From NCBI GenBank assembly GCA_027483995.1, contig JAIXTK010000409.1:1-35988 (forward strand): 35,988 nt of DNA, given 5' to 3'. The notes beneath the pieces are model-generated. The model did not search any database. It saw nothing but the letters and a program-made list of their open reading frames with translations, and had not been told where the DNA came from. This document shows, piece after piece, positions 9,304 through 35,449 of this stretch (positions within the stretch are counted from its first letter, which is position 1; each line of letters opens with the position of its first letter). The position numbers and the translations under genes were made by a program. The DNA is from Acetobacteraceae bacterium. GTDB lineage: Bacteria > Pseudomonadota > Alphaproteobacteria > Acetobacterales > Acetobacteraceae.

Positions 9304-9690
9304 GCGTTTGCAGCGCCACGTACGCAGTGGCTGCTCTGGTCGGCGGTGGCACCCGAACGACTCGGACAATCGGCAGTCCACCTTATCGAGGACAGGGCCG
9401 ACGAGCTGGTCTTCAGCGTCGTAAGCATCTGGGAAGCGGCGATCAAGGCCGCCCTGGGCCGCGCCGAATTCACTGTCAGCCCACGGCGCCTACGCCAAGG
9501 CGTGCTGAACAGCGGCTACCAGGAACTGACCATCAACGGCGTACATGTGCTCGCCACTGGTGACCTGCCACTGATCCACCGTGATCCTTTTGTTCGCATG
9601 TTGCTTGCCCAGGCGCATCATGAAGGGCTGGTCCTTGCGACCTCCGATCGCACTCTCGCACGCTATCCGGTCGCCGTCCGGGTGGTCTGA
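9304..9690 (+). pseudogene. truncated vapC-like PIN-domain toxin remnant
   Basis: The frame directly after the ATPase stop reads TQWLLWSAVAPERLG, then VFSVVSIWEAAIKAALGRAEF, IHRDPFVRMLLAQAHHEGLVLATSDRTLARYPV. This aligns with VapC-family PIN proteins from the middle of their first motif (LLDTHxxLWW) onward. The opening residues with the first catalytic Asp are missing because the sequence joins exactly there to the ATPase stop codon. The later acidic position in HRDPFDR is Val here. An ATG exists at 9346, but the encoded 114-residue piece would lack the active site. No antitoxin gene lies upstream. It is best read as a decayed toxin left by an old rearrangement. Confidence 0.65.
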
Positions 9691-9742
9691 CGTCTTGCTA
9701 CGCGGGTCCTATGGCGCCAAAGCGCGCCCGCATCAGATGGGA

Positions 9743-10309
9743 TCACTCTCGGTCGAAATACTCGGCCGCCTTGGGATCCACTCGCAGATCAGGGCGCAGG
9801 ATCAGCCAGCACCGATCGGCAGCAATCCATCCCGCCAAAACCGCGCAACTGACGAACCAACCCGCCACCACGAGCCCTGCGACGACCATGCCTTCCGTAT
9901 CCTCAGGCCGATGGCGCAACGGTGCCCGCCAAACCCAAGTCAACGCCAACCCTGCCGCAACACCAACCACCACCCCGCTTAAGGACCCGGCAAGACGGTA
10001 GATGCGCCGATCTGTTCGACTATTGGCAAAGAGCATCGCGTGAATTGGAAGGCCCACCACACATAGCGCAGCGAAGATGACGAAAAACGCCGGTAACGCC
10101 GTCGCAAGCGCGAAGCCGCAGCCTTTCAGAAGTCTCTGCACCCAATTCCAATCGGTTGGTCGGGAGTGAAAAAACTCCCCCATAAAGAGCAGGCCGGACC
10201 AGACCGCACATGCGATGGATCCTTGAGCGGCACCGCACAGCATGGCGCGCCCGACTGGCCCCCAATCCGGCACACCCAATGAGCGTCGTTCGCGATCGAC
10301 CATGGACAT
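9743..10309 (-). CDS. hypothetical integral membrane protein
   Basis: 188 residues with about four hydrophobic segments: around 23-45 (MLCGAAQGSIACAVWSGLLF), 66-92 (GFALATALPAFFVIFAALCVV), 108-127 (LAGSLSGVVVGVAAGLALTW) and 145-168 (VVAGLVVAGWFVSCAVLAGWI). Spacing and sidedness look like a real inner-membrane protein. No family is recognised. Two close ATGs (10309 and 10303) are possible and neither has a strong ribosome-binding site. It lies alone on the minus strand between the VapC remnant and the beta-oxidation gene, facing away from the latter. It could be an incidental open frame, but the regular membrane segments argue for a gene. Confidence 0.55.
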   Translation of the reverse strand: MSMVDRERRSLGVPDWGPVGRAMLCGAAQGSIACAVWSGLLFMGEFFHSRPTDWNWVQRLLKGCGFALATALPAFFVIFAALCVVGLPIHAMLFANSRTDRRIYRLAGSLSGVVVGVAAGLALTWVWRAPLRHRPEDTEGMVVAGLVVAGWFVSCAVLAGWIAADRCWLILRPDLRVDPKAAEYFDRE

Positions 10310-10420
10310 ACACTACCGTTTTGACCGCGTGCCGGTAAACGACGCCTCTCCCCGCCTGGACGCCCCCCACCCCTTCCCCTAACCTGCCGCTCAACACAGC
10401 AGAAACGGCAGGAAACGACC

Positions 10421-12538
10421 ATGTCTGACGCACCGCTCGTCCACCTCGAACGCCACAACGACGTCGGCGTCATCATCGTCAACAATCCTCCGGTCAACGC
10501 CCTCTCCCCCGGAGTCCCCGAGGGGATCGTCGCCTGCTTCCAAGAGGCAGAGGCCGACCCCGCCATCAGGGCCATGGTCCTCATCGGTGACGGCCGCAGC
10601 TTCATCGCGGGCGCCGACATCCGCAACTTCGGCAAGGGTCGCGCCCCCATCCCGCCCGGCAGCCGCAGCCACGACGTGCTCGACACGTCAACCAAGCCGG
10701 TCGTCGCGGCCATCCACGGCTATGCCCTGGGCGGCGGGCTCGAGAATGCTATGGCCTGCAGTTACCGCATCGCCAAGCGCAGCGCGAAGGTCGGCCTGCC
10801 GGAGGTCCTCATCGGCATCCTCCCCGGTGGCGGCGGCACCCAGCGCCTGCCTCGCCTGATCGGCCCGAAGGCCGCGCTCGATCTCATCGTCTCCGGCCGC
10901 CACGTCCCTGCTGCCGAGGCCCTTACCCTCGGCATCATCGACGCCGTCGTTGAAGACGACCAGGACCTGAAGCAGGCTAGCATCGCCTTCGCCCGCGCAA
11001 AGGCTGAGGCACGGCCCCTGCCCCGCATCAGCACCCGTACCGACAAGCTGGAGGAAGCGAAATCCGACCCCGGCATCTTCGACGCCAAGCGCAAGGAGAT
11101 CGCCCGCCGCGCCCGCAACCAGAAGGCGCCCTACAACTGCATCCTCGCCGTCCAGGCCGCCACTGAACTTCCCTTCGCCGAAGGGCTTCAGCGCGAGCGC
11201 GACCTCTTTAACGAACTCGAGAACTCGGACGAAGCCCGCGCCCTGCGCTACGTCTTCTTCAGCGAGCGCGAAGCTGCCCGCGTTCCTGGCCTGGATCCCG
11301 CGACCAAGGTGCGCGAAATCAACACCGCCGCCGTTATCGGTGCCGGCACCATGGGCGGGGGCATCGCCATGGCCTTCGCAGATTTTGGCGTCCCGGTCCG
11401 TATCCTGGAAGCCACCCAGGAAGCGATGGACCGCGGCATGGCCCGCATCCGCGCCAACTATGAAACCTCCGTCAAGCGGGGCAGCCTCGCGGCCGACGAG
11501 ATGGAGCGCCGCTTCGCCCGCATCACCCCCGTCCTCTCCTACGACCTGATTGGCGATGCCGATGCCGTGGTGGAAGCCATCTTCGAACAGATGGCCCCGA
11601 AGAAGGAGGTCTTTGCCAAGCTCGACGCCGTCATGAAGCCCGGCGCCCTCCTTCTCTCCAATACCTCGGCGTTGAACATTGATGAGATCGCGAGCGCCAC
11701 GACGCGCCCGCAAGATGTCGCCGGCGCCCACTTCTTCTCGCCTGCCAACGTGATGAAGCTGCTCGAAGTCGTGAAGGGTGCCAAAACCTCACCCGATACG
11801 ATGGCCAGCACCATGGCCATGGGCCGCAAGATCGGCAAGCTCAGCGTCGGCTGTGGCAACTGCGACGGCTTCCTCGCCAACCGGTCCCGCGCCCCGTTCA
11901 ACGCCGAAATGGTCATCATGCTCGAGGAAGGCGCCCTCCCCGAACAGATCGACAAGGTCATGGTTGATTTCGGCTACCCCATGGGCCCCTTTGCCGTGGG
12001 CGACCTCGCCGGCCTCGATATTGGTGCCGAAAGCCGCAAGCGCCGTGCCGCCGCCGATCCCAACTATCGCAAGCTCCCGATCGCCGACCGCTTGGTTGAA
12101 ATGGGTCGCTTCGGCCAAAAGACCGGCGCCGGCTGGTACCGCTACGAAAAGGGCGACCGCACCCCTCACCCAGACCCCATCGTCAAGCAGATCATCGCCG
12201 ACGTGGGCAAGGAACTCGGCATCGAGCAGCATGCCTTCACGGAGGAGGAAATCCTCCGCCGCCTGCTCTTCTCCTCGGTCAACGAAGCGTGCAAGATTCT
12301 TGACGAAGGGATCGCCTACCGCAGCAGCGACATTGACGTGATGTGGCTGCACGGCTTCGGCTTCCCGCGCTATCGCGGCGGCCTGATGTTCTGGGCCGAC
12401 CAGATCGGCCCCAAGGCCATCTACGACCAGATCAGCGTTTGGCACCAACGCTACGGCAACCGCTGGGCCCCTTCGCCCTACCTCCGCGCGCTTGCAGAAT
12501 CCGGCACAAGCTTCCGCAACGCAAAGCCCGGAAAGTAG
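10421..12538 (+). CDS. bifunctional enoyl-CoA hydratase / 3-hydroxyacyl-CoA dehydrogenase (FadB/FadJ type)
   Basis: 705 residues, normal for this fused beta-oxidation enzyme. Residues 1-200 are an enoyl-CoA hydratase with both catalytic glutamates, Glu108 in GGGLENAM and Glu128 in GLPEVLIG, and the oxyanion segment FIAGADI. The NAD-binding motif AAVIGAGTMGGGIA (303-316) begins the 3-hydroxyacyl-CoA dehydrogenase part, whose catalytic His437 lies in GAHFFSPANVMKLLEVV. The C-terminal dehydrogenase domains carry GFLANR and YPMGPFAVGDLAGLDIG. It hydrates the 2-enoyl-CoA and oxidises the product to 3-oxoacyl-CoA. GCAGGAAA precedes the ATG. It is followed 29 bases later by a CoA-transferase subunit, consistent with one operon. 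Confidence 0.95.
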   Translation: MSDAPLVHLERHNDVGVIIVNNPPVNALSPGVPEGIVACFQEAEADPAIRAMVLIGDGRSFIAGADIRNFGKGRAPIPPGSRSHDVLDTSTKPVVAAIHGYALGGGLENAMACSYRIAKRSAKVGLPEVLIGILPGGGGTQRLPRLIGPKAALDLIVSGRHVPAAEALTLGIIDAVVEDDQDLKQASIAFARAKAEARPLPRISTRTDKLEEAKSDPGIFDAKRKEIARRARNQKAPYNCILAVQAATELPFAEGLQRERDLFNELENSDEARALRYVFFSEREAARVPGLDPATKVREINTAAVIGAGTMGGGIAMAFADFGVPVRILEATQEAMDRGMARIRANYETSVKRGSLAADEMERRFARITPVLSYDLIGDADAVVEAIFEQMAPKKEVFAKLDAVMKPGALLLSNTSALNIDEIASATTRPQDVAGAHFFSPANVMKLLEVVKGAKTSPDTMASTMAMGRKIGKLSVGCGNCDGFLANRSRAPFNAEMVIMLEEGALPEQIDKVMVDFGYPMGPFAVGDLAGLDIGAESRKRRAAADPNYRKLPIADRLVEMGRFGQKTGAGWYRYEKGDRTPHPDPIVKQIIADVGKELGIEQHAFTEEEILRRLLFSSVNEACKILDEGIAYRSSDIDVMWLHGFGFPRYRGGLMFWADQIGPKAIYDQISVWHQRYGNRWAPSPYLRALAESGTSFRNAKPGK

Positions 12539-12567: not shown

Positions 12568-13251
12568 ATGATCGACAAGACCGTCCGCACTGTCGCGGAA
12601 GCCCTCAACGGCATCCCAGATGGCGCGACGGTCCTCATGGGCGGCTTCGCAGGCACCGGCGAGCCTCGCCACCTTCTCGCCGGTCTCCTCGAACAGGGCG
12701 CCAAGGATCTCACCATCGTCGGCATCCACGCAGGCATGGCTGACGATGCCCTCGGCGCTCTCGTTGCCGCAGGTCGCGTCCGCAAAGCCATCGTCTCCTG
12801 GGCGAGGAGCCCCACCGGCCCGATCCCCCTCGAACCCCTTCTGCGTGAAGGTCGCGCCGAACTCGAACTCGTCCCTCAAGGCACCCTGGCCGAACGCATC
12901 CATGCGGCCGGCTCCGGCGTTCCCGCCTTCTTCACCGCCACCTCCGTCGGCACTCCCTTGGCCAAGGGCAAGGAGCACCGAGAGATAGATGGTCGAATCT
13001 ACGTTCTGGAAAAGGCCATCTTCGCAGACGTCGCCCTGATTGAGGCTTGGCAGGCCGACCGCTGGGGCAACCTGACCTACCGGCGCGCAGGCCGAAATCT
13101 CAACGCCGTCATGGCTCCCGCCGCCAAACTCACCATCGCCCAGGCCCAACACCTGGTCGAACTTGGAACGCTGGACCCGGATCACATCGTCACACCCAGC
13201 ATCTACGTGCAGCGGGTGGTGCACATCCCGTATGGAAACCCGCCGCTTTAG
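12568..13251 (+). CDS. 3-oxoacid CoA-transferase subunit A (PcaI-like), without subunit B
   Basis: 227 residues, matching subunit A of 3-oxoadipate/3-oxoacid CoA-transferases. Visible are the glycine-rich CoA loop LMGGFAGTGEPRHLLAGL (about 22-39), LELVPQGTLAERIHAAGSGVPAFFT and YVLEKAIFADVALIEAWQADRWGNL, then DPDHIVTPSIYVQRVV at the end. The catalytic glutamate of this enzyme class is on subunit B (PcaJ). No B gene follows; the next stretch is a hairpin and the convergent amidase gene. The A chain should therefore be inactive alone unless a B subunit is encoded elsewhere. AAGGAAG lies upstream of the ATG at 12568. Confidence 0.9.
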   Translation: MIDKTVRTVAEALNGIPDGATVLMGGFAGTGEPRHLLAGLLEQGAKDLTIVGIHAGMADDALGALVAAGRVRKAIVSWARSPTGPIPLEPLLREGRAELELVPQGTLAERIHAAGSGVPAFFTATSVGTPLAKGKEHREIDGRIYVLEKAIFADVALIEAWQADRWGNLTYRRAGRNLNAVMAPAAKLTIAQAQHLVELGTLDPDHIVTPSIYVQRVVHIPYGNPPL

Positions 13252-13292
13252 GAAGCGGGCTCCTTCTCTCAGACGATTGCGGAAGGAAAGAT

Positions 13293-13348
13293 GGCTTGAT
13301 CCATTTGTGCCAGCGGCCCGTGGCCGCGAAGCACAAACGGATCAAGCC
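13293..13348. repeat. long two-tier hairpin between convergent genes
   Basis: The left arm GGCTTGATCCATTTGTGC (13293-13310) pairs with GCACAAACGGATCAAGCC (13331-13348), 18 bp with one mismatch. Inside it a second stem, GCGGCC (13313-13318) / GGCCGC (13322-13327), closes on the loop CGT. It sits between the CoA-transferase stop (13251) and the end of the oppositely oriented amidase gene (13357). A role as bidirectional terminator fits the position, although no T-tract follows on either strand. The length and near-perfect symmetry also fit a dispersed palindromic (REP-like) element. Confidence 0.6.
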
Positions 13349-13356
13349 GCAGGGCC

Positions 13357-15714
13357 TTACGGCTCCAGCACTGTCGTGCTCTCCAGGTCCTTCTCGATAT
13401 CGGACCGGTCGAGGCTCACCACGTGGTATTCCCCCTTGATGAAGGGCTCAAACTGGTCCCGGTAATGCGAGCTGCCAGGCATGCCGGAATTCCCGATATT
13501 CTGCACCGCCAGAAACTTCCGAGGCTCGGCAAAGTCGGCAACGATCCGATACTACGCACCAGAACTCGCCGCATGCGGCGGCAGCTCGCCACCCGTGTTG
13601 CGCACGGTGTGCGACCCGCCATCGAGCGGCGCCGGCCCGATGTCGAAATCCGCCGCAACATCCAGCCCGCCAACCGGGTGCTTCCAGTGCGCAACGTGCA
13701 CGGTGCCCCAATTCCAGCCCTTGGGGTCCACACCCAGCCGCCCACGCAGCGTCGCCATGCCAGCCTTCGCCGCCGCAACAGCCGCCGCTTTCGTGCCACC
13801 AGGGAAATACGCCATGTCCGGGTTTGCCAGCAGATGCACGCACAAATTCGTCTGTTGCATGGCCAGGTCCAGCAGCCGCGGCGGAATGTGCACCGACAGC
13901 GTCGCGCGCTGGAAATGGAACATAAATGTTTCGAACACCGTGGCAGCTATACTGTCCACGGTGTACATGCAGTCCCATCCGTCCAGGATCGCCGCCAGCG
14001 CTTCGGCATCCGCATCCCCACTGCCCTTCAGCAACGAAACAACACCCGGCGCCGACCGCTCTGCCCGAACGCTCTTCACGTCGTTCTGAAGACGGATCGT
14101 ATGCGCCCGGTCCGCCTTCGCGCCCGAGAACGCCTGGTCAATTCGGATGCCCCGATGCCCCTGTGAATACGCGCCATAGATCGGATACTTGTAGCCTGGC
14201 TCGACAATCCGCTGGTTCGCGCTCGCCACGAACCCCGTCGAGGGGTTGTAGCGGTTCGGCAATCCATCGAAGGGAATATAGCCCGTCCAGCGATCGGCCG
14301 AGTTGTTCGCATCCCGAACCCCTGCCGTCATCCGGCCACGGATCGGCAGCCGCCCAGCCATCTGGTAGCCGGCATTCCCGCTGCTGTCGGCATACACCCA
14401 GTTGAACACCGCCACCGCCCAATCGCGCAGCGCATCGCGGAACTGCTCCCAGTTCTTCGCTCGGCCCACATTGATCGAAGCGCGGATGTCGTTCAGGTGC
14501 TCCGCCCCCACCCATCGCAGTGATGTCACCGGGTCACCGCCCGCCGCCATCTGCGGAATGATTGCGTTCACCACCGGTCCACGCACTGTGGACTTCACCA
14601 CCAGCGCCCGGGTCGCCTCCCCCTTTACCGGGATCGAAACCACCCGCTCATCGAACCGCCGCCAGGCATCCCCATCGCGGTAGCGCGAAGGATCGGCCGC
14701 ATCCACCTCCTCGCGATAGAGGTCGCGCGTCATCGCCATGTTGTTGGTGATCGCGAACGCAACGGTCCCGTTGCTGCCCCACCACAACCCCGGCATCCCC
14801 ACGGGCCCGGCGCCGGCTGCATCATCCTCCGGCCCATGCAGCCCATACTCGTACCAACTCGACGGAATCCAGAACGGCTGGTGCGGATCCCCCGCCAGCA
14901 GTGCCTTGCCCCCAGTTGCCCGGCTGCCAGCCACGGCCCAGTTGTTGGACCCCGTCGCATCATCCGTCCCATGCCCGAAGGGCTTCTGCGCCACCACCTC
15001 AGGCCACCCAGCCGGCGGAACCACAAGGTGCTCCGAGGCCTCCGGAGTCAGGTAGATTTCGCGCAACACCTCCGCCGGCAGGAACTTCGCCGCCTCCGCC
15101 GCCATGATCCGGTCCAGCCGGCCGTTCAGGCTCCACCAGAACCCGCGCGCGATCGCCACCACGTCGCTCACCGTGAACGGCGCCGGCGTATAGCCCAGCA
15201 TCCGGAACTCAACCGGCAGGTCGGCGCCAAAACGCTCGATTGCCCGGTTGATCCCGCGCACGAACGCCGCGGTCTCCTCATAGGTCTTGCCATCCATCAG
15301 CGCCGGCTCACGATCGGCCATCTGATCCAGGCCCACGATCAGATGCGCGGTGTCAGAAGCCACGAACGAGGCACCAAGAACCTCCGCCTGACGCCCCAGC
15401 GCGCGCCGCCGCAGCCTGTCCATCTGCCACAGCCGGTCCTGCGCCATCGCGAACCCGACACCGAGGTAAAGATCCGCCGTGCTTTTGGCGAACACATGCG
15501 GCACGCCAGACCGGTCGCGAAGGATATCCACCTTCGCCCCAACGCCCGCCTTCAACGTCTGGTCCGGCAGCGTCGCATGCCGCTTCAGCCATGCCGAGCG
15601 GGCCGCGGCAAACTCCGCCTCCGTCGTCCCTGCCGCCTTGCACACATCCGCCACCGACCGCGCGCCTGTCAGCGCCGCCAGCACCGCCGCATCGTCCAAC
15701 GCCATTCCCGTCAT
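13357..15714 (-). pseudogene. penicillin acylase family protein, interrupted by an in-frame TAG
   Basis: Ntn-hydrolase of the penicillin acylase family, which cleaves amide bonds (beta-lactam side chains, N-acyl homoserine lactones and other N-acyl compounds). The autoproteolytic nucleophile is Ser256 in TGSNNWAVAG, followed by LLAGDPHQPFWIPSSWYE. FAMAQDRLWQMDRLRRRALG near residues 88-107 is the usual alpha-chain signature. There is no evident signal peptide, unlike typical periplasmic members. The frame stops at TAG (13552-13554, codon 721) after SSGA. The same frame continues for 65 codons as YRIVADFAEPRKFLAVQ, then GNSGMPGSSHYRDQF and GEYHVVSL, which is the family's normal C-terminal end, to TAA at 13357. 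The family motif GASYR suggests TCG (Ser) became TAG. Causes could be a real nonsense mutation or a base error. The start overlaps the SDR stop (ATGA). Confidence 0.85.
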
Positions 15715-16511
15715 CCTTCCGATTCACGCGACGGCCCCACCAGGGTCGCGCCGCCATCCACCACCAGAACCTGCCCTGTCACGAACCGTGCCTGCGCCGA
15801 TAGCAGGAAACGCACTGCCATCCCCACATCCCAACCCGTGCCCTCAACCGCCATCACCGAGGCCTTGCGCCGCCCCTCCCGTGCCGCATCGCTCATCCCG
15901 CGCGCATACACCATCGGGGTGTACACTGGGCCAGGAGCCACGCAATTGACCCGGATGCCATCCTTGCCATGATCCACCGCCATCGCCTGGCTCAGCCCGA
16001 TCACCGCCGCCTTGCTCGTGGTGTAAGGCGTCAGCCCCCGCGGCCGCAGCGCCGAAATGGAAGACACATTCACGATCGCACCGCCGCCGGCCCGCTTCAT
16101 CGCTGGCACTGCGTACTTGCTCACCAGAAACATGGAATCCACATTCACCCGCATCACCCGGGTCCACTCAGCCTCCGAAACATCCACCACGGAGCCCTTG
16201 CCGCCAATCCCCACATTGTTATCCAGCAGGTCCAGTCGCCCGAAGACCCGCTCCGCATGCGCCACCATTGCAGCGCACGCCGCCCCGTCGGTCACGTCGT
16301 AGGAAGCGGCCTCCGCCACGCCCCCCTCGCCACGGATCATCGCCACCGTACGCTCGGCAAGGGAGATCTCCCGGTCCACCACCAGAACCCCGGCCCCAGC
16401 GCGCGCCAGCAGCATTGCCGCCGCCCTGCCATTGCCGATTCCGTCGCCGGCAGCACCGCCACCAGTGACGATCGCGCCCTTGCCCCGCATCCCCCAAATA
16501 TCGTCTTCCAT
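15711..16511 (-). CDS. short-chain dehydrogenase/reductase (SDR)
   Basis: 266 residues, classical SDR. The cofactor motif is GAIVTGGGAAGDGIGNG (12-28), slightly longer than the usual TGxxxGIG. NNVG (98-101) replaces the common NNAG, the catalytic serine lies in NVSSIS (150-151), and Tyr163 and Lys167 form YTTSK. The end RFVTGQVLVVDGGATL is the usual SDR C-terminus. Asp46 at the end of the second strand (VLVVDRE) predicts NAD rather than NADP. The likely reaction is oxidation of an alcohol or hydroxyacyl-CoA. Its stop overlaps the start of the amidase gene by four bases (ATGA), so the two are translationally coupled. Confidence 0.92.
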   Translation of the reverse strand: MEDDIWGMRGKGAIVTGGGAAGDGIGNGRAAAMLLARAGAGVLVVDREISLAERTVAMIRGEGGVAEAASYDVTDGAACAAMVAHAERVFGRLDLLDNNVGIGGKGSVVDVSEAEWTRVMRVNVDSMFLVSKYAVPAMKRAGGGAIVNVSSISALRPRGLTPYTTSKAAVIGLSQAMAVDHGKDGIRVNCVAPGPVYTPMVYARGMSDAAREGRRKASVMAVEGTGWDVGMAVRFLLSAQARFVTGQVLVVDGGATLVGPSRESEG

Positions 16512-16648: not shown

Positions 16649-17503
16649 TCACGGCAACCCCGCTCCCGGCACATCCACTCGCACCATCTCGATCGCACCG
16701 TCCCGCTTTTCGGCCATCGCCGGCCCGCTTGCCGTACTCGTGCACACGTACAGCGTCTTGCGGTCCGCCCCACCCAGCATGCAGGCGAAGGCATGCCGCC
16801 CCTCAGCCATGCGGATCGTCTCTACTACGCCCACGCCTTCCCGTGCGCGCACCACCCGATGCCCGCGCGGATCGGCCACCCAGATCCCTCCCTCGGCATC
16901 CAGGCAGATCCCATCGGGCCAGACATCCTCGAACTGCGCGAACACCTTGCGGTTCGAAAGCCCGCCATCGGCCCCGATATCGAAGCTCGTCAGCCGGTGC
17001 GCCAGCGTCTCGCCAATGATCAGCCGCTTCCCATCCGGCGTGATCACCGCCCCGTTGGGAAACATCAGTCCATCCGCCACCGCATGCACACTGCCATCGG
17101 GGTCCACCCGCACCAGCACCGCCGCCTTTTCGCTCTCGCCCTTGTGCCGGTCGAACCCGAAATTCCCCACATAGGCCCGGCCCGCCGCATCCACGACCAT
17201 GTCGTTGCACGGCCCGTCAGCCAACCCGCCCAACTCGGCCAACACCGAAAGCGCGCCCCGGTCACAGCGCATCAACCGCCGGTCCAGCATCGAGACCACC
17301 AGCATCGTGCCATCCGGCCGCCAGCCAAGCCCACTCGGCTGCTGCGGCACATGCGCCATCGTCTCCGCCCATCCCTCTTCAGAAAGGGCGATCACCCGGT
17401 GCGTGTAGAAATCCGAAAACCAGAACCGGCCGTCATGCCAGCGCGGCCCTTCCGGGAACGTCAACCCGCCCAGCACCGTCCGCAGCGCCCTTGTCGTGGC
17501 CAT
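16649..17503 (-). CDS. SMP-30/gluconolactonase/LRE family protein
   Basis: 284 residues, a usual length for this six-bladed beta-propeller family of metal-dependent lactonases. The first metal-site motif is GGLTFPEGPRWHDGRFWFSD (Glu18). Later blades show LGWRPDGTMLV, GLMFPNGAVITPDGKRLI with the metal-binding Asn, and VWPDGICLDAEGGIWVADPRG with the Asp. The predicted reaction is hydrolysis of a sugar or other small lactone, in the cytoplasm since no signal peptide is seen. GGGAGGAAG lies just upstream of the ATG at 17503. It leads the minus-strand set that continues with the SDR and the amidase, divergent from the crotonase gene at 17589. Confidence 0.9.
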   Translation of the reverse strand: MATTRALRTVLGGLTFPEGPRWHDGRFWFSDFYTHRVIALSEEGWAETMAHVPQQPSGLGWRPDGTMLVVSMLDRRLMRCDRGALSVLAELGGLADGPCNDMVVDAAGRAYVGNFGFDRHKGESEKAAVLVRVDPDGSVHAVADGLMFPNGAVITPDGKRLIIGETLAHRLTSFDIGADGGLSNRKVFAQFEDVWPDGICLDAEGGIWVADPRGHRVVRAREGVGVVETIRMAEGRHAFACMLGGADRKTLYVCTSTASGPAMAEKRDGAIEMVRVDVPGAGLP

Positions 17504-17588
17504 GGGCTTCCTCCCGCTTTACGCTTTCCGTGCGAGCCTAACCGCAAACTGCGCCGGAACAAGGCACCCAGGGAAGGAAACCATCAGC

Positions 17589-18449
17589 ATGTCCGCCACC
17601 GCATACGAAACCATCCGCTATGAGCAGCCAACGCCGGCCATCGCCCGGATCGTCATGAACCGGCCAGAAGCCCGCAATGCCCAGAACCTGGTCATGACCT
17701 ATGACCTCAATTCCGCCTTCGATCGTGCCGTGGCAGACGAGAACACCAAGGTCATCATCCTCGCCGGCGCCGATCCCCATTTCTCCTCGGGCCACGACCT
17801 GCGCGCCGGCGGTCGCAACAAGGCGGGCATCGACTTCCCGGCACTCGGCACCTGGGGCGGCTTCGAGGAAGGTGGCGCGCATGGCCGCATGGCCCGCGAA
17901 CAGGAGATCTACCTCCAGATCACCCGCCGCTGGCGCAACCTCGCCAAGCCAACCATCGCCGAGGTCCAGGGCCGCTGCATCGCCGGCGGCCTCATGCTCG
18001 CCTGGGCCTGCGATCTCATCATCGCCAGCGATGATGCCTCCTTCTGCGACCCCGTCGTCACCATGGGCGTCTGCGGCGTCGAATGGTTCGCCCATCCCTG
18101 GGAGCTCGGCGCCCGCAAAGCCAAGGAATTCCTCTTCACCGCCGACACCTGGTCCGCCCAGGAGGCCCACCGCCTTGGCATGGTCAACCATGTCATTCCC
18201 CGCGCCGAGCTCTCCGCCTTCACCCTGGCACTCGCCGAGAAGATCGCCTCCAAGCCCGCCTTCGCGCTCAAAACCACCAAGGAAGCCGTCAACCGCGCCA
18301 CAGACGCCCAGGGACAGCCCGAAGCCATCGAGCATGCCTTCGCGCTGCACCAGCTTTGCCACGCTCATAACCAGATGATGTTCAACATGGCCGTCGACCC
18401 CGCCGGCCTCGCCCCCGCGGTCAAGGGCAAGCCTCCGGCCGGCGGTTAG
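17589..18449 (+). CDS. enoyl-CoA hydratase/isomerase family protein (crotonase fold)
   Basis: 286 residues. Crotonase landmarks are FSSGHDLRAGG (65-75) and GRCIAGGLMLAWACDLIIAS (128-147). Neither classical catalytic glutamate is present: the equivalents are Met136 (GGLMLA) and Val156 (DPVVTMG). An insert rich in glycine and charged residues (about 75-108) separates the first oxyanion strand from the next helix. The end is longer than in a simple hydratase. It is therefore probably not an ordinary enoyl-CoA hydratase, although it binds an acyl-CoA. AGGGAAGGAAA precedes the start MSATAYET at 17589. The hairpin at 18515-18546 likely ends its transcript. Confidence 0.9.
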   Translation: MSATAYETIRYEQPTPAIARIVMNRPEARNAQNLVMTYDLNSAFDRAVADENTKVIILAGADPHFSSGHDLRAGGRNKAGIDFPALGTWGGFEEGGAHGRMAREQEIYLQITRRWRNLAKPTIAEVQGRCIAGGLMLAWACDLIIASDDASFCDPVVTMGVCGVEWFAHPWELGARKAKEFLFTADTWSAQEAHRLGMVNHVIPRAELSAFTLALAEKIASKPAFALKTTKEAVNRATDAQGQPEAIEHAFALHQLCHAHNQMMFNMAVDPAGLAPAVKGKPPAGG

Positions 18450-18546: not shown

Positions 18547-18629
18547 TCTTCGCCGGCGGGTGAAGAACTTTTTCTGAGTTATGGAAAAATTACCTCGTCA
18601 TCCAGCGTTGGGTGTCATATATAACTGGC

Positions 18630-19277
18630 ATGATTCAATCATCCGCTTCACCCCCTGCTGCGCCGGCGTGCATCCGCACGCCCGAGCTGGCACGAGCGGT
18701 GCTCCGGATCATCCTCGCCCCCCTCATTGCTCTCATCGAAGCCCGCATCGCCGCCGCGCTGAACCAGTTGCTCGGCCTGATGCAGCAATGGCGCGACGGA
18801 ACCCTCCCGGCCCCGCCGCCCGAGCGTCCGTACGTCCCCCGCCAGACCACCCCGCGCCCGTACTCCGCCCCGCCGGCCCAAGCGGCGTCATGGCTGGACG
18901 CCCTCTTTGCCCTGGCCATGTCGGACGAACCGGCCTCCGAATCCCGTCCGCACGCCAGCACGGCGTCAGCGTCCCGTCCGTCACCCAATCCCCGGGTCAG
19001 CCCGGTGCAGCCCGAACCGTCGGTTACCGTGTTCGCGCCGCCACTTGCTCCCACGATGCGGAAACGGCGCCAACTGCCTGGCTCTACAGGCCAGAGGCCT
19101 TATGCGCGGCGCCCCGTCCTGATCCCCGCAGCTGGACGACGCCCGGAATTCGCACAGTCGGCTTCTGGCCGGCATGTGGCGTCCGATCCTCCGCTGCGCC
19201 CTCCGGATATCCAAAAGAGCGCAACTCGAGCTTTCGCCTTAGCCTGCCTATTTCATTTCGAAATCAAAATTAATTGA
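18630..19277 (+). CDS. hypothetical Pro/Ala/Ser/Arg-rich low-complexity protein
   Basis: 215 residues from the ATG at 18630; a GTG at 18612 would add six. The first third has a regular hydrophobic/amphipathic helix: ARAVLRIILAPLIALIEARI and AAALNQLLGLMQQW (about 20-60). The rest is low-complexity, rich in Pro, Ser, Ala and Arg, without predicted fold, ending in a short aromatic tail (FALACLFHFEIKIN). No family is recognised with confidence. The region upstream is AT-rich (CATATATAAC at 18616-18625), which would suit a promoter. It overlaps the end of the convergent acyl-CoA dehydrogenase by 8 bases. It may be a spurious open frame favoured by GC content, but the helix-plus-tail pattern is unlike a shadow frame because no gene lies opposite it. 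Confidence 0.45.
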   Translation: MIQSSASPPAAPACIRTPELARAVLRIILAPLIALIEARIAAALNQLLGLMQQWRDGTLPAPPPERPYVPRQTTPRPYSAPPAQAASWLDALFALAMSDEPASESRPHASTASASRPSPNPRVSPVQPEPSVTVFAPPLAPTMRKRRQLPGSTGQRPYARRPVLIPAAGRRPEFAQSASGRHVASDPPLRPPDIQKSATRAFALACLFHFEIKIN

Positions 19278-23239: not shown

Positions 23240-24916
23240 ATGGAGCATCACGCGCGGCACAGGCTCCTATTTGGCCTGGCATTGTTGTCTTCGATGGTGG
23301 TGCTCCTGCCTGTCGTGGGGCTAGCTGGGCTTGCGGCGTTCGGAACGGGGGATCTGTGGCCCCATCTGGTCGCATATGTCCTTCCCGATGCCCTTCGCCA
23401 AACGACACTGCTCCTGATCGGTACGGGTGCTGTCACAGCGGTTACGGGCGCCGGGCTTGCATGGCTGATGACAGGCTTCCATTTCCCGGGGCGCCGCTGG
23501 TTGGAATGGGCAGTGCTCCTCCCGTTGGCGATTCCCACCTACATCGTAGCGTATGCCTATCTGGATGTTCTGCACCCGATAGGGCCGGTGCAGTCCACGC
23601 TGCGAGCCCTGCTAGGTGTCAGTGACGTGCGCGGCCTGCAGTTGCCTGACGTGCGTTCCATGGCAGGCTGCATCCTGGTGATGTCTGCATCGCTCTACCC
23701 CTATGTCTATGTCAGCACACGCGCTGCCCTGCTCACGCAATCGCTTGAGGCGATCGAAGCCGCAAGGGCGTTGGGGGCGGCGGGTGCCCCCTTGATGTAT
23801 CGGGTCACGCTACCCCTGGCGTTTCCTGCTATCTGCGCAGGGTTGGGCTTGGTCCTGCTCGAGACGCTCGCGGATATCGGCGCAAGCGAGTTTCTTGGCG
23901 TCCGAACCTTGACGGTAGCGGTTTACGTCACCTGGACCACCCGCGGATCGGTGGAAGGTGCCGCACAGATCGCACTCGCAATGCTGGCCCTGACATTCAC
24001 GCTTTTGGCGTGGGAGCGTGCCGCCACGCGCTGGCGCGACCGCGAGGTTTCGGGTGACCGGTCTCCATTCCGGGTTCGCTTGACCGGCCTGCGTGCAGTA
24101 CTGGCTACGGGGATCTGTATGGTTCCCCTGATGCTCGGCTTCGGTGTTCCCACGCTGCACCTGTTGGTCAGCGCCGCCATCCGGGTCAGCGAGTTCGGCC
24201 TGCCCGCGGCTATTGGGACATGGATGTGGAACAGTGCGTACCTCGCGATGCTGGCAACGCTGGTCACACTGGCCTGTGGCATAACCGTGACGTTCTGCCA
24301 CCGGTATCTGGCCAACATCTGGTCCCTGGCAGTATTGCGCATTGCAGCGCTTGGGTACGCTATGCCCGGTACCGTTCTGGCCGTAGGCCTGCTCGGCCCC
24401 ATGGCGCAGGTGGACAACGCCGTTCTGGACCTACTCGATTGGCTCGGCGCCGGATTCCAACACAGCTTGATCTCCGGTTCCATCCTGATGCTGGTTATTG
24501 CCTACGTCGTTCGCTTCCTCGCCATTCCCCTGGGGATGCTGGAGACCGCCTATGGCAGAATGCCCGTCACCATCGATGACGCCGCACGCGGGCTGGGGGC
24601 GGCCAACAACGCACTTGCGTGGCGGATCCACCTACCGATCCTGGCCCCCAGCCTCTCTGGCGCGGCGCTTCTGGTCCTCGTTGAATGCATGAAGGAGCTT
24701 CCAGCCACACTGCTGCTGCGCCCGCTGAACGTGGAAACCTTGGCTACAGCAATCTATGCAGAAGCATCGCGGGGCACTTACGAGGATGGGGCAGTTGCCG
24801 CGCTCTCGATCGTGCTGCTGGGCCTGGTTCCCGTCATCGTTCTGGTTCGGCGGAGCATCTCTCTATCGGCTCCGCCGGTCATACAGACACGCAGTCAACT
24901 GTTATCGCAGGCCTGA
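23240..24916 (+). CDS. iron(III) ABC transporter permease (FbpB/FutB-like)
   Basis: 558 residues with about twelve membrane segments in two permease domains. The EAA loops are visible as EAARALGAAGAPLMYRVTLPLAFPAI (about 173-198) and DDAARGLGAANNALAWRIHLPILAPSL (about 445-471). The segment PLAIPTYIVAYAYLDVL near residue 95 is characteristic of iron permeases of this class. It follows the binding protein by 12 bases, so the two are one transcript. No ATP-binding gene follows; the next gene is convergent. The ATPase must come from another locus, possibly shared, or has been lost. Confidence 0.92.
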   Translation: MEHHARHRLLFGLALLSSMVVLLPVVGLAGLAAFGTGDLWPHLVAYVLPDALRQTTLLLIGTGAVTAVTGAGLAWLMTGFHFPGRRWLEWAVLLPLAIPTYIVAYAYLDVLHPIGPVQSTLRALLGVSDVRGLQLPDVRSMAGCILVMSASLYPYVYVSTRAALLTQSLEAIEAARALGAAGAPLMYRVTLPLAFPAICAGLGLVLLETLADIGASEFLGVRTLTVAVYVTWTTRGSVEGAAQIALAMLALTFTLLAWERAATRWRDREVSGDRSPFRVRLTGLRAVLATGICMVPLMLGFGVPTLHLLVSAAIRVSEFGLPAAIGTWMWNSAYLAMLATLVTLACGITVTFCHRYLANIWSLAVLRIAALGYAMPGTVLAVGLLGPMAQVDNAVLDLLDWLGAGFQHSLISGSILMLVIAYVVRFLAIPLGMLETAYGRMPVTIDDAARGLGAANNALAWRIHLPILAPSLSGAALLVLVECMKELPATLLLRPLNVETLATAIYAEASRGTYEDGAVAALSIVLLGLVPVIVLVRRSISLSAPPVIQTRSQLLSQA

Positions 24917-29569: not shown

Positions 29570-30345
29570 TCTGGTGACTTCGGCGGAGGGGAGTACGCCA
29601 GATTCGAGCGCGACCGTATGGTGTTTTGGTCATGCCACCAAGTGGTCAGTACGGCTCATGTCTGCACCATCGAGGTGACAAGCGTCTTAGTGAGGGACTC
29701 GTCACGGAGCCAGCCACTAAAGCTCCCGACGAACGCGTTCTGGGTTGGCTTATCTGGCGCAGTCCAATGCATTCCACTTGGCGCTCATGCAACCAACGCA
29801 GAATCGAGGTCGATGTGAGCTCCGTGCCGTTGGCGCTGACCAACGCCAGCGGCTTGCCACGGATTGCCGCGGTCGCGTCGATTTCATGCGCGCCCCTGGC
29901 ACCCGACAGCGACGTATCGGGCACGAACGCCAGGCATTCGCGCTTGACGTTGTCCACCACCCACAGGACGCGGAAACGCCGGCCACAGCCAAATGCGTCA
30001 GAGACGAAGTACAACGGCGCTGGTTCAGCCACTACGGCAGGGTCATCGGAGCCCTGGTTCCCAGCGCCAGTTTCCGGCCACCGCAGCGGCCCATCTTCAT
30101 GCCCTCCTTGCGACAGAGCCTGAGAAGATTCTCGTCGTTCGGCTTCAGTCCTTCTCGCGCCGGCAGATAGCCTAGGCGCCGATAGCCAAACCGTCACCGC
30201 TCGGCCGCCGGCTCACGCTGCCGCTGCCGCAGACTGGTATCGTCCGGCCGGTTCGGCTGATACCGCGCCACCTGCCTGGCAATTCCGATCAGATGGCACG
30301 CCCGGCGCTCGCTCCGCCCGTATCAGCCTCGGGAATGAGCGACCG
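29570..30345 (-). pseudogene. IS3-family transposase orfB remnant
   Basis: Integrase-like orfB scattered over frames. Recognisable pieces in order are RYQPNRPDDTSLRQRQRE, GYRRLGYLPAREGLKPN, LYFVSDAFGCGRRFRVLWVVD, ECLAFVPDTSLSGARGAHEID, LALVSANGTELTSTSILRWL, and, after a shift near 29775, APDKPTQNAFVGSFSGWLRDE. Functional relatives read LDFVSDA, SDNGTE and NAFVESFNG at the catalytic sites; here they are Tyr, Ala and Gly, so all three DDE residues are gone. In-frame stops lie in the N-terminal part and after MVQT. It is certainly non-functional. Confidence 0.85.
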
Positions 30346-31052: not shown

Positions 31053-31262
31053 TTAACGTGAGGCGATAAGCGCGTGGACTCTTAAGGATGACGCAAGTGG
31101 CCGATCTGCCGAGCGTTCGGCATCGATCTCACTGACCAGTTGAGCAAGGCTTGAGCTTTGCGCGCTCGCCAATTGTTCCAGCACCAGCCAAAACTCGGCT
31201 TCCAACGCGATGCTTGTCCGGTGCCCCGCGAGAGTGAAGCTGCGCTTGACCAGCCAGCTCAC
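31053..31262 (-). CDS. ribbon-helix-helix domain protein (RHH_4)
   Basis: 69 residues. LVKRSFTLAGHRTSIALEAEFWLVLEQLA is the RHH_4 pattern: a basic beta-strand that would enter the DNA groove, then two helices. The second part SLAQLVSEIDAERS and ASSLRVHALI completes the fold. Proteins of this type are small dimeric DNA-binding proteins of alphaproteobacteria with unknown targets. The GTG at 31262 forms a GTGA overlap with the queG stop and puts the conserved LVKRS four residues from the start; an ATG at 31286 would overlap queG by 28 bases. The coupling to queG suggests co-production with the queuosine enzymes and perhaps feedback control of them. Confidence 0.75.
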   Translation of the reverse strand: MSWLVKRSFTLAGHRTSIALEAEFWLVLEQLASAQSSSLAQLVSEIDAERSADRPLASSLRVHALIASR

Positions 31263-32293
31263 GACGCAAGCCTTTCCGCGCTCCAACGACCGGCTTCGGC
31301 CACCACGGGATCCGAATCACCCGCGAGCGTTTGCGCAACCGACAACAGATCAGGCCGTCCACTGTTGCCGATCGCAACGGCCACGTTGCGGACAAATCGT
31401 CCTCGGCCGATTCGCTTGATCGGAGAGCCTGTGAAGCGTCTCCTGAAAGCGGCGTCGTCCAAGGTTGCCAAATCCGCCAGAAGTGGCCCTTGCAGGTCTT
31501 CGCGCGCGGTCAGCTTCAGATGCCTCGACACCTTGGCAAATCGATTCCATGGGCAGACAGCAAGGCAGTCATCACACCCATAAATCCGATTGCCAATGGC
31601 ACTGCGCAACGGCACCGGAATTGGTCCTTGGTGCTCGATTGTCAGGTAGGAGATGCATCTGGTCGCATCGAGGCGATAGGGCGCCGTGAACGCGTCGGTC
31701 GGACAAGCCTGGAGACACCGCGTGCAACTGCCGCAATGATCGCTCCCAGGAAGGTCAGCAGGGATCTCAAGCGTTGTGTAGATCTCACCGAGAAAAAGCC
31801 ACGATCCAAATGATCGAGAGACAAGATTGGTATGCTTGCCTTGCCATCCGATCCCTGCGGCGGCGGCAAGTGGCTTCTCCATGACTGGAGCCGTGTCTAC
31901 AAAAACCTTAACCCCGCCAGGTGCTTGTGCAACGAGGAACTGGGCAAGGTGCTTCAGCATTCCCTTAACAACGTCATGATAGTCACGGTTACGAGCGTAG
32001 ACCGAAATATTGCCCTTCTGCTTCTGTTCAATATTCGCCAACGGGTTGAGATCGGGCCCATAGTTGACACCGAGGCAGATCACCGTTCTCGCATCGGGCC
32101 AGAGAGCGCGGGGGTGGCTGCGTTGCTCTGCTCGCTCCGCCAGCCACCCCATCGTTCCATGATGCCCGGCCAGTAGAAACTCCTGAAGTCGATCCCGAGC
32201 ATCTTCGCCCAATTCAGCGCGCGCGAAGCCAATCGCGTCGAACCCAAGTTTAAGCGCCCTGCTTCGAATCGCTTCAGCCAGCTTGGCTGTCAC
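31259..32293 (-). CDS. queG: epoxyqueuosine reductase QueG
   Basis: 344 residues from a GTG start. QueG is a cobalamin and iron-sulphur enzyme that reduces epoxyqueuosine to queuosine in tRNA, the last step of the pathway. Two 4Fe-4S sites are visible: Cys187, 190, 193 and 197 in CGSCTRCLQACP, and Cys240, 243 and 247 in CDDCLAVCPWN, with Cys213 in CISYLTIEHQG. The catalytic Asp133 lies in FVDTAPVMEK. The C-terminal 80 residues are HEAT-like helices. The GTG at 32293 follows the queF stop immediately (TAGGTG), so translation is coupled. No transcription signal is seen between the genes. Confidence 0.95.
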   Translation of the reverse strand: MTAKLAEAIRSRALKLGFDAIGFARAELGEDARDRLQEFLLAGHHGTMGWLAERAEQRSHPRALWPDARTVICLGVNYGPDLNPLANIEQKQKGNISVYARNRDYHDVVKGMLKHLAQFLVAQAPGGVKVFVDTAPVMEKPLAAAAGIGWQGKHTNLVSRSFGSWLFLGEIYTTLEIPADLPGSDHCGSCTRCLQACPTDAFTAPYRLDATRCISYLTIEHQGPIPVPLRSAIGNRIYGCDDCLAVCPWNRFAKVSRHLKLTAREDLQGPLLADLATLDDAAFRRRFTGSPIKRIGRGRFVRNVAVAIGNSGRPDLLSVAQTLAGDSDPVVAEAGRWSAERLAS

Positions 32294-32755
32294 CTATCCC
32301 CGTCCTCGATACGTGGGAACGCCCTGGTCCGGTACCCACACCCCACCAGGCGGGGCCCCAGTCTGCCAAAACACGTCGATCGGTATTCCACCCCGCGGAT
32401 ACCAGTATGCACCGATCCGCAACCAAGCTGGTGCGAGCAGATCAACCAAGCGCCGCGCAATCATCATGGTGCAATCCTCATGGAAGGCACCGTGATTACG
32501 GAAACTGGCGAGGAAAATCTTGAGAGACTTGCTCTCTACGATCCAGTCAGCCGGCACATAGTCCAAAACAATATGCGCAAAATCAGGCTGCCCGGTCAGT
32601 GGGCACAGGGACGTGAACTCCGGGCATGTGAAGCGAATCAGATACCCGTTTCCTAGGCTCGGGTTCGGCACCCGTTCCAGAACCGCAGCTTCAGGCGAAG
32701 CGGGAACTCGTGTCGACTGACCCAGTTGTGTCAGCCCCTCAATGCCCTGACTCAT
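32294..32755 (-). CDS. queF: NADPH-dependent preQ0 reductase QueF (type I)
   Basis: 153 residues, the short unimodular type. It reduces the nitrile 7-cyano-7-deazaguanine (preQ0) to preQ1 with four electrons from NADPH. The thioimide-forming Cys51 and Asp58 lie in [14 protein letters not shown], the substrate motif is VESKSLKIF (Glu74), and His92/Glu93 lie in NHGAFHEDC. The start MSQGIEG at 32755 forms an ATGA overlap with the tgt stop. A longer frame to 32878 merely covers the end of tgt. It sits between tgt and queG as a middle gene of the operon. Confidence 0.95.
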
Positions 32756-33873
32756 AACGGAGTATCTCCTTCCAGCCAGAGTTGGCGTGTCTCGGAACTG
32801 AACTGCGACAGTTGGCCAGCGAGGATAGCAGCTCGGGTGCCCTCCATAAGCTTTTGATAATAGGTCAAATTGTGCCACGTCAGCAGTATCGGACCCAGCA
32901 TCTCATTGCACCGAAACAGGTGATGAAGATACGCCCTAGTATGCTTGGTGCACCCTAGACACCGGCACCTTGGATCGAGGGGCCGATCGTCAGTAGCAAA
33001 CCTGGCGTTGCGAAGGTTAGCAACGCCAAAGGACGTAAAGGCGCGCGCCGTGCGGCCAGCACGAGTTGGCATTACGCAATCGAACATATCGATGCCTCGG
33101 GCGATAGCTCCCAGAAGATCATCCGGAGTGCCAACCCCCATCAAATATCGCGGTCGGTCATGCGGCAGACTTGGGACCGTGCAGTCGAGCACCGAGAACA
33201 TCATCTCCTGCCCCTCCCCTACAGCCAAGCCACCAACGGCGTAACCGGGAAAGCCAAGACTCACGAGCGCATCAGCGCTTTGCTTGCGCAAGTTGGGATA
33301 AACGCTGCCCTGCACAATGCCGAACAGCCCGTACCCAGGGCGTTCCACGAACGCCCGCTGCGACCGTGCGGCCCAAGCCAGAGATAGGTTCATGGATTCG
33401 CGCGCTTGTTCCATCGTAGCTGGAAAGGGCGTGCATTCGTCGAGCACCATGGAGATAGTGGCATCAAGCTTGTGCTGGATGTCGATTGAGCGCTCAGGCG
33501 TAAGCCTGTGGCGACTGCCGTCGAGATGTGACTGAAACGTAACACCATCAGGATCCAGCTTACGGAGCTTCGCCAGAGACATGATCTGGAACCCGCCTGA
33601 GTCAGTCAGGATCGGCCCCGGCCAATCCATGACCCGATGCAGGCCGCCCATCGCAGCGATCCGCTCCGCGCCCGGGCGCAGCATAAGGTGATAGGTGTTC
33701 CCCAAAACAATGCGCGCACCCGTGCTTCGCACAGCATCCGCCGTCATCGCCTTCACTGTCCCAGCCGTGCCGACCGGCATGAAGACCGGTGTCGGTATCG
33801 GTCCATGGGCAGTGGACAGCATGCCAGCGCGCGCCTGTCCGTCCACCGCCTCGGTCGTCCATGAGATTGTCAT
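32752..33873 (-). CDS. tgt: tRNA-guanine transglycosylase
   Basis: 373 residues, typical bacterial size. It exchanges G34 in the anticodon of Asp, Asn, His and Tyr tRNAs for preQ1. Asp91 lies in [12 protein letters not shown], and the nucleophile Asp265 in [15 protein letters not shown]. The zinc site Cys303, 305, 308 and His334 lies in CRCLGCTK and [14 protein letters not shown] and GGLAVGE form the base-binding pocket. It overlaps queA by four bases at its start and queF by four at its end (ATGA both times), so it is translationally coupled on both sides. Confidence 0.97.
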
Positions 33874-34907
33874 GCACGCTCCAAAAGGGTGGCATCGCCA
33901 TACGAATAGAATCTATACCCTTCGGCTATGGCATGCGCGTACGCCGCCTTCATCCGATCTGTGCCAGCAAAGGCACAAACGAGCATGAAGAGTGTTGAGC
34001 GCGGCAAATGAAAATTGGTCAGCAACAGATCGGCGCTACGCACCGGAGTACCTGGTCGAATGAAGATCGCGGTTTCTCCCGCGAAGGGAACGATCTTTCC
34101 ATCGGGTTGAACCGCCGTCTCAAGCAGACGGAGCGTCGTGGTGCCGACAGCAAGGATCCGCCCGCCATGAACCCTCGCATGATTGATCGCAGCAGCGGTG
34201 CCGGGGCTGATTTCACCCCGCTCGGCGTGCATCCGATGCGCCGAGACGTCGTCCACCCTTATGGGCAGGAACGTCCCAGCGCCCACATGCAGCGTCACGG
34301 TAACCAGTCCAACACCCCGCTCGCCAATGCGCCTAAGCAAGTCTGGCGTGAAGTGAAGGCCGGCTGTCGGCGCCGCGACGGCACCCTCATGCGCGGCAAA
34401 GACTGTCTGGTAGTCGCTACGATCCTGCTCGCGGTTGCCTTCGGGCCGATCGATGTAGGGGGGCAATGCGAGCGCGCCGGCGATCCGCAGCGCATCCCGG
34501 AAGGCACTTCCCTCAAGGTTAAAGCGGAGCAACACCATACCGTTTTCGTTGCCCCTGATAACCTTTGCCTGGAGCACCGGACTGCCATCAAACGTCAGAT
34601 CATCCCCATCCCGTAGCCGCCGGGCGTTGCGTGCAAGTGCGAACCAGTTTCCGCACGCATCAGGCCTGTCCAACGTGATGCTGATTCTTGCGGCCTGTCG
34701 TCGTGCCACCAACTGCGCAGGGATAACCTTCGTGTCATTCACCACCATCAGATCGCCAGGCCGCAGATGATCCGGGAGATGAGCCACAACCCTATCCTGC
34801 AGCCCATCAGTCCGGACATGAAGCATCCGGGCACTATCCCTCGGACTGGCGGGCGCCTGGGCAACCCGCTCCTCAGGCAGATCGAAGTCGAAGTCACTCG
34901 TCTTCAT
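33870..34907 (-). CDS. queA: S-adenosylmethionine:tRNA ribosyltransferase-isomerase QueA
   Basis: 345 residues, standard. It builds epoxyqueuosine by moving the ribose of S-adenosylmethionine to preQ1 in tRNA. The N-terminus is MKTSDFDFDLPEERVAQAP, and PGDLMVVNDTKVIPAQL follows. The core has EGAVAAPTAGLHFTPDLL and VTLHVGAGTFLPIRV, and the end has LLTNFHLPRSTLFMLV and GYRFYSYGDATLL. All are conserved in the family. The start at 34907 shares one base with the transporter stop (TGATG). Open frame upstream of it is the shadow of the transporter gene. It precedes tgt with a four-base overlap. Confidence 0.97.
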   Translation of the reverse strand: MKTSDFDFDLPEERVAQAPASPRDSARMLHVRTDGLQDRVVAHLPDHLRPGDLMVVNDTKVIPAQLVARRQAARISITLDRPDACGNWFALARNARRLRDGDDLTFDGSPVLQAKVIRGNENGMVLLRFNLEGSAFRDALRIAGALALPPYIDRPEGNREQDRSDYQTVFAAHEGAVAAPTAGLHFTPDLLRRIGERGVGLVTVTLHVGAGTFLPIRVDDVSAHRMHAERGEISPGTAAAINHARVHGGRILAVGTTTLRLLETAVQPDGKIVPFAGETAIFIRPGTPVRSADLLLTNFHLPRSTLFMLVCAFAGTDRMKAAYAHAIAEGYRFYSYGDATLLERA

Positions 34908-35449
34908 CAACGCGGAACAGCCGTGACCCGTCGAACCAGCTGCACCAAGGGATATGCGAACAGAAGCGCCCAGGCCTTGCCGATGATCTGCCCTGCCAAA
35001 TAGTCGAGGCTGCCAAATGCAAGGAGAAGAAATACGATCGAATCGACTACCAATCCAACCAGAGACGAGGCAATCACGGCAAGCAAAAGGCGCCGCTGTT
35101 GGAGTGGGGTGTAAACAGCAAAATCCGCCAACTCGCTCAACAGGAACGCAGTGCTCGAGGCGATGACCAGGGAAGGGGGCGCCAACCAGAACGACAAGAC
35201 TGCACCAGCCAGGATCGCAGCAAGCGACCACGCCCCGCCCATCAGTCGCTGCACAATGTCCCGCATGACCAGCGCCAGACCAACCATCAGCACCCCGGAG
35301 GGAGCCATCACACCGGGTGCGACCGGCACCAGGCAAGGGCCATTCGGAACGCATACAGTACCGACATGCCCGATCATCCAGTTTGCAAACGGTATGCAAA
35401 AAAGGAATAGGGCGAGCGAAATCACGCCCAGAGCGGATCGCTGATACAT
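34907..35449 (-). CDS. yhhQ: queuosine precursor transporter (VUT family, YhhQ-like)
   Basis: 180 residues with about five to six hydrophobic segments. The family motif region lies near residues 96-116 (SELADFAVYTPLQQRRLLLA), with the preceding APPSLVIASSTAFLLSE and APSGVLMVGLALVMRDIVQR near 49-68. VUT proteins carry queuosine precursors (preQ0, preQ1, queuine) through the inner membrane. The start MYQRSALG at 35449 is preferred to the farther ATG at 35503, which lies inside the VOC gene. Its stop shares a base with the queA start. It is the first gene of the queuosine set proper and supplies or recycles the base the other enzymes process. Confidence 0.88.
   Translation of the reverse strand: MYQRSALGVISLALFLFCIPFANWMIGHVGTVCVPNGPCLVPVAPGVMAPSGVLMVGLALVMRDIVQRLMGGAWSLAAILAGAVLSFWLAPPSLVIASSTAFLLSELADFAVYTPLQQRRLLLAVIASSLVGLVVDSIVFLLLAFGSLDYLAGQIIGKAWALLFAYPLVQLVRRVTAVPR

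Follow-up and report, generated by a model that had tools for sequence, protein, structure and literature searches.

A penicillin-acylase-type gene interrupted by a single, assembly-private amber codon in an Acetobacteraceae draft genome

What is the status of a gene that is open from its start codon to its natural end, except for one in-frame TAG? The question is raised by a penicillin-acylase-type gene (Pfam: PF01804, S45 Ntn amidohydrolase) at positions 13357-15714, minus strand, of the stretch of DNA analysed here (the window, 35,988 nucleotides), which makes up the entire contig C166 in the draft genome of an Acetobacteraceae bacterium (5.0 Mb, 501 contigs, 89.17% complete, 5.36% contamination). 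Among the best 80 of 588 relatives, the closest named ones are metagenome-assembled genomes of environmental origin, whose labels read Alphaproteobacteria, Rhodospirillales or Acetobacteraceae. An earlier, sequence-only reading had described the gene as split by a lone amber codon with the rest intact, and had offered a recent nonsense mutation, natural readthrough and a base error as explanations.

The frame opens with an ATG at 15714 and runs through 720 sense codons to the TAG (codon 721, 13552-13554), behind which it continues for 64 sense codons to a TAA at 13357-13359. The gene thereby comprises 785 codons, one of them the TAG, plus the TAA; the tail (13357-13551) is in frame to its end, as described before, and the 65 codons then counted for it include the TAA. 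When the TAG is read as X, the translation matches PF01804 over residues 61-775 and the profile over its full length (1-675 of 675), with 596 bits at a cut-off of 21.3. This profile search had been proposed in the sequence-only reading and bears out its description of a split family member. Taken alone, the two pieces score 539 bits (profile 1-611) and 38.7 bits (profile 622-675), over adjoining ranges. A single 785-codon family match with one stop in it is certainly a real gene carrying a stop. Enzymes of this type consist of an A chain and a B chain, the latter starting with a serine followed by an NXWXXG motif (PMC11241749), and this arrangement is found at residues 256-263 (SNNWAVAG); the codon of Ser256 (14947-14949), the expected N-terminal nucleophile of the beta chain, is intact, as had been claimed, and the residue is invariant in an alignment of 29 homologues.

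Judged by sequence and by structure modelling, the nearest solved relatives of the enzyme are D-succinylase and the cephalosporin acylases, and its assignment as an acylase is by family. The best sequence match to a solved structure is D-succinylase from Cupriavidus sp. P4-10-C (PDB: 7eby, 7ea4), which is aligned through its C-terminus (E 1.7e-78) but is only 28-30% identical and has Ser, not the Glu of the closer relatives, at the position of the stop.

The stop codon of a short-chain dehydrogenase gene (15711-16511, minus strand; PF13561, 6.8e-56) overlaps the acylase ATG by 4 bases, and the two genes likely form one operon; an SMP-30/gluconolactonase-like gene (16649-17503, minus strand; PF08450, 9.8e-52) lies further upstream and is read in the same direction. 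Just behind the acylase TAA, folding predicts a strong, terminator-like hairpin on the same strand (13293-13348; -63.5 kcal/mol for the folded stretch 13262-13370, z -7.9). If this is a terminator, the unit would be transcribed through the whole 785-codon gene. By eye, sequence resembling the hairpin is found, with base changes, 3' of the gene in the same-genus genomes G001 and G006, and none in G002, G003, G007 and G008. A repeat-family origin was rejected for the hairpin, as a 19-base pattern from its 3' arm has one site in its own genome at up to 2 mismatches. Further along lie a CoA transferase gene (12568-13251) and a FadB-like gene (10421-12538), both recognised by Pfam matches and both ending in TAG.

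Elsewhere in the window, about 1.05 kb at 9307-10353 are missing from the corresponding junction in G001, G006 and G003, G002 being uninformative here since a longer stretch is missing there. This segment holds a PIN-domain open reading frame (9346-9690, plus strand; PF01850, 1.2e-6) and another without Pfam match (9743-10309, minus strand), and is possibly a toxin-antitoxin remnant or another recent insertion. A fragment at 29646-30197 with a weak integrase-core (rve) match, under the Pfam cut-off, lies near the end of the G006 alignment (29423), and a queuosine-related cluster with QueG-like, QueF-like, TGT and QueA-like (Queuosine_synth) genes occupies 31259-35399 on the minus strand.

Whether the stop belongs to the family or to this assembly is best seen at codon 721 of related genes. 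A close acylase match is present in all eight same-genus genomes returned, six of which cover the codon (G001, G002, G003, G006, G007, G008); the matches in G004 and G005 lie at contig ends, are confined to the 5' portion of the frame (residues 1-161 in G004, 1-339 in G005) and are uninformative at this position, as are L011 and L012, which also stop short of it. Together with three genomes of the same taxonomic family (G012, G022, G028) and five other named contigs (L007, L008, L009, L010, L018), this makes 14 close homologues covering the codon, of which 14 have Glu and none has a stop. Three more distant homologues have Thr, Thr and Asn, and Ser is found in D-succinylase and in some remote homologues. 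The amber codon is one base away from the codon of the relatives, and the earlier statement that relatives have Ser here (in GASYR), one base from TCG, did not hold for the close ones. The closest comparison is JAPLOI010000033.1 (LacPavin_0818_WC50_MAG_69_13; L006, the same contig as G006:C8), whose gene likewise has 785 codons, adjoins a short-chain dehydrogenase gene, is followed by similar sequence at its 3' end and is 99% identical in protein and 95.0% in DNA, but has a Glu codon where the window has TAG.

This comparison of sister strains, suggested in the sequence-only reading, shows the stop to be private and the gene intact elsewhere, and intact orthologues together with a private in-frame stop are the signature of a nonsense pseudogene. 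Of the three explanations then offered, it favours a recent nonsense change or a base error and disfavours readthrough as a conserved mechanism. The same reading had named relatives whose proteins stop naturally at this point as evidence against its claim. None turned up among the best 80 of the 588 relatives, where the match runs to residue 764 or further in 74 of 79 loci and breaks off at the end of the locus in the remaining five; a natural C-terminus at 720 was therefore rejected.

Behind the TAG, R723, G741 and G744 are invariant in two alignments of 29 and 30 homologues, hand-picked among those spanning the tail and leaving out loci cut at contig ends, and S743 is invariant in the former and nearly so in the latter. 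In PMC11241749, the final conserved regions of the enzyme family are strand B1-5 and an H4/B1-6/H5 unit with a conserved DQ pair. The D753-Q754 of the tail fits this pair, and we infer that either 722-727 or 733-738 corresponds to strand B1-5. The 720-residue product, which covers only profile positions 1-611, lacks these C-terminal conserved regions and the DQ pair, all of which are encoded 3' of the TAG.

The structure modelled for the intact L006 protein has a mean pLDDT of 91.3, with ten-residue blocks from 721 on at 93-98. In this model, residue 721 lies between strand segments 718-720 and 722-727, and the part lost behind the stop comprises strands 722-727, 733-738, 764-767 and 777-784 and helices 755-759 and 770-775. 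Compared with known structures, the model finds D-succinylase at Foldseek rank 1 (TM 0.80); a second structure search aligned it with cephalosporin acylase 3s8r (Z 45.6, rmsd 3.1, 629 residues aligned) and with D-succinylase 7eby (Z 43.5, rmsd 2.8, 691 residues aligned), in both cases extending to residue 785. In this second search the last aligned model residue is at least 773 in all 50 entries listed, the aligned ranges being given as first and last residue only. With the TAG, the protein loses invariant residues as well as the final strands of its fold, so the 720-residue product is probably inactive, as far as conservation and the model can tell.

How long has the stop been there? The nearest two full-length copies, those of G001 and G006, show 94.8% and 95.0% DNA identity to the window's gene, and codon differences amount to 113 synonymous and 9 replacement changes against G001 and 103 and 11 against G006; by this pattern the acylase gene is under strong constraint. 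Against neither copy does the gene have an indel, which rules out a frameshift in place of a nonsense change. Taking a codon as window-private if G001, G006 and G002 have it in common against the window, we found 28 synonymous changes and 1 replacement 5' of the stop, and 7 synonymous changes and 1 replacement 3' of it. Seven or more synonymous changes of eight would be expected without constraint with a probability of 0.0002 if all changes are equal, or of 0.007 if they are weighted by the observed lineage spectrum. The tail's one private replacement affects codon 749, with Ser in the window and Pro in all six same-genus homologues covering the codon; Ser is also found at this position in D-succinylase. 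Thus, the eight private tail changes give no clear sign of relaxed selection behind the TAG, and their 7:1 ratio suggests that the tail was constrained coding sequence until very recently, so that most of its lineage changes probably arose while it was being translated. Such a pattern is compatible with a nonsense change of very recent date, with an error or with readthrough, and not with an old pseudogene. Private synonymous changes are more frequent per codon in the tail (7/64) than in the rest of the gene (28/720); a local burst near the stop, as a hint of recombination or a chimera, was rejected, the densest 60 codons holding 14 private changes where permutations averaged 11.9 (P 0.11, not significant).

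An error in the consensus or assembly, by which the cell keeps the sense codon of its relatives and the TAG stems from a sequencing error, from damage or from a minority variant, is possible, if rather unlikely. It would sit easily with the fragmented and contaminated state of the draft genome, with a stop that is private and a single base off, and with a tail that appears as constrained as the rest of the gene and has no decay to prove the stop real. On the other side stands the rest of the window, where the frames of G006, G001 and G002 reveal no convincing private stop outside the acylase, an outcome with which a single error is still compatible. Among the third-position-biased G006 frames mapped to the window, 6 of 26 meet an in-frame stop and, read by hand, are two over-extended starts, three antisense shadow frames and the acylase. 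The same reading of G001 frames gave 3 flagged of 17, namely the acylase and two opposite-strand frames, and that of G002 frames 6 of 19, comprising the acylase, one frame extended too far, three antisense frames and a permease frame near 23240-24916, in a region where the G002 alignment is rich in gaps and the window itself has an open frame of 558 residues. Two further intervals, 17538-18368 (minus) and 18581-19273 (plus), have a substitution pattern unlike that of genes.

Functional readthrough, in which an amino acid is inserted at the TAG in enough cases to produce the 785-residue enzyme, would account for the intact and constrained frame behind the stop, and in-frame stops in bacteria have been argued to be widespread, often with dN/dS below 1 (PMC7918605). 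However, that work relied on stops common to at least two species, while the present one occurs in no relative examined; release factor 1 is encoded in the genome (491 bits, above its cut-off); and the TAG that ends both the FadB-like and the CoA transferase gene is a normal stop here. Examination of all 42 tRNA candidates, 41 of them called by ARAGORN and the last a partial match at a contig end, revealed no CUA anticodon in the 41 called genes, an absence that is not final in a genome of about 89% completeness. We therefore consider functional readthrough improbable. In its programmed form it would call for a conserved stop and for a suppressor tRNA or the loss of release factor 1; none of these was found, the first in 0 of 14 close homologues, and with the stop not conserved, release factor 1 present and no amber anticodon in 41 tRNA genes, programmed readthrough is unlikely. 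The release factor, the same 41 tRNA genes and the two neighbours ending in TAG also rule out a genome-wide reassignment of TAG. Near-cognate decoding needs neither a suppressor tRNA nor the loss of release factor 1, and a real amber codon whose private, non-programmed readthrough by this route keeps the enzyme under selection in the population is quite improbable in our view. That the 720-residue form is active, either by itself or together with a tail translated from its own start, is very improbable: the nucleophile and all residues to 720 are intact and the family enzymes have an A and a B chain (PMC11241749), but no relative among those compared ends near residue 720, invariant residues and fold strands lie in the tail, and, with Met codons considered as starts, the tail's sole Met codon is 745, well inside it.

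We favour a very recent nonsense change in an ordinary PF01804 acylase that is intact in related species, and give this reading a probability of roughly 60%. For it speak a TAG that is in frame, a gene that is otherwise intact and a stop that is absent from every covering relative examined. The change would have arisen on the lineage, or in the population, represented by the assembly, and may be fixed or segregating. Translation would end at residue 720, where release factor 1 would free the chain at the TAG, and the product, cut inside a beta region, would be without its last 65 residues; going by the model, the precursor would probably misfold, or at least not mature into active enzyme. The gene would then be a pseudogene of recent origin or a null allele segregating in the population. 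According to PMC7918605, in-frame stops under purifying selection are short-lived, lasting about as long as population polymorphisms, and this fits the present stop as a segregating or recent change. The stops considered there resemble ours in being single and in having few replacement changes on both sides, but differ in that those kept were common to at least two species, whereas the stop in the window is private to one assembly.

How unusual is such a gene? As a background, PF01804 was searched in 120 genomes from the same taxonomic family, 99 of which had a match at 1e-30. Of the 150 matches listed, by a count by hand, two carry an internal stop, each a lone TAG. One is the gene in the window. 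The other (L109:3167-3169; G032:C44) is likewise a family member whose frame is open except for one internal TAG, and this stop is also private, with a Trp codon in its place in the same-genus G143, but it lies in a different paralog (31% identical to our query), in another genus and at another position of the protein. Lone private stops thus occur in about 1 in 100 copies among the matches listed, a background level at which the present stop is unremarkable. Our literature search found no paper on a penicillin acylase with a nonsense mutation or a C-terminal truncation.

The stop is thus a confirmed but ordinary feature, and gives no evidence for a new decoding mechanism. In annotation, a gene caller would report the open frame at 13552-15714 (stop included) as a protein of 720 residues, missing a conserved C-terminus that is encoded in frame behind it. 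If the stop is real, it would mean that the acylase is being lost, or is variable between strains, in an environmental bacterial lineage.
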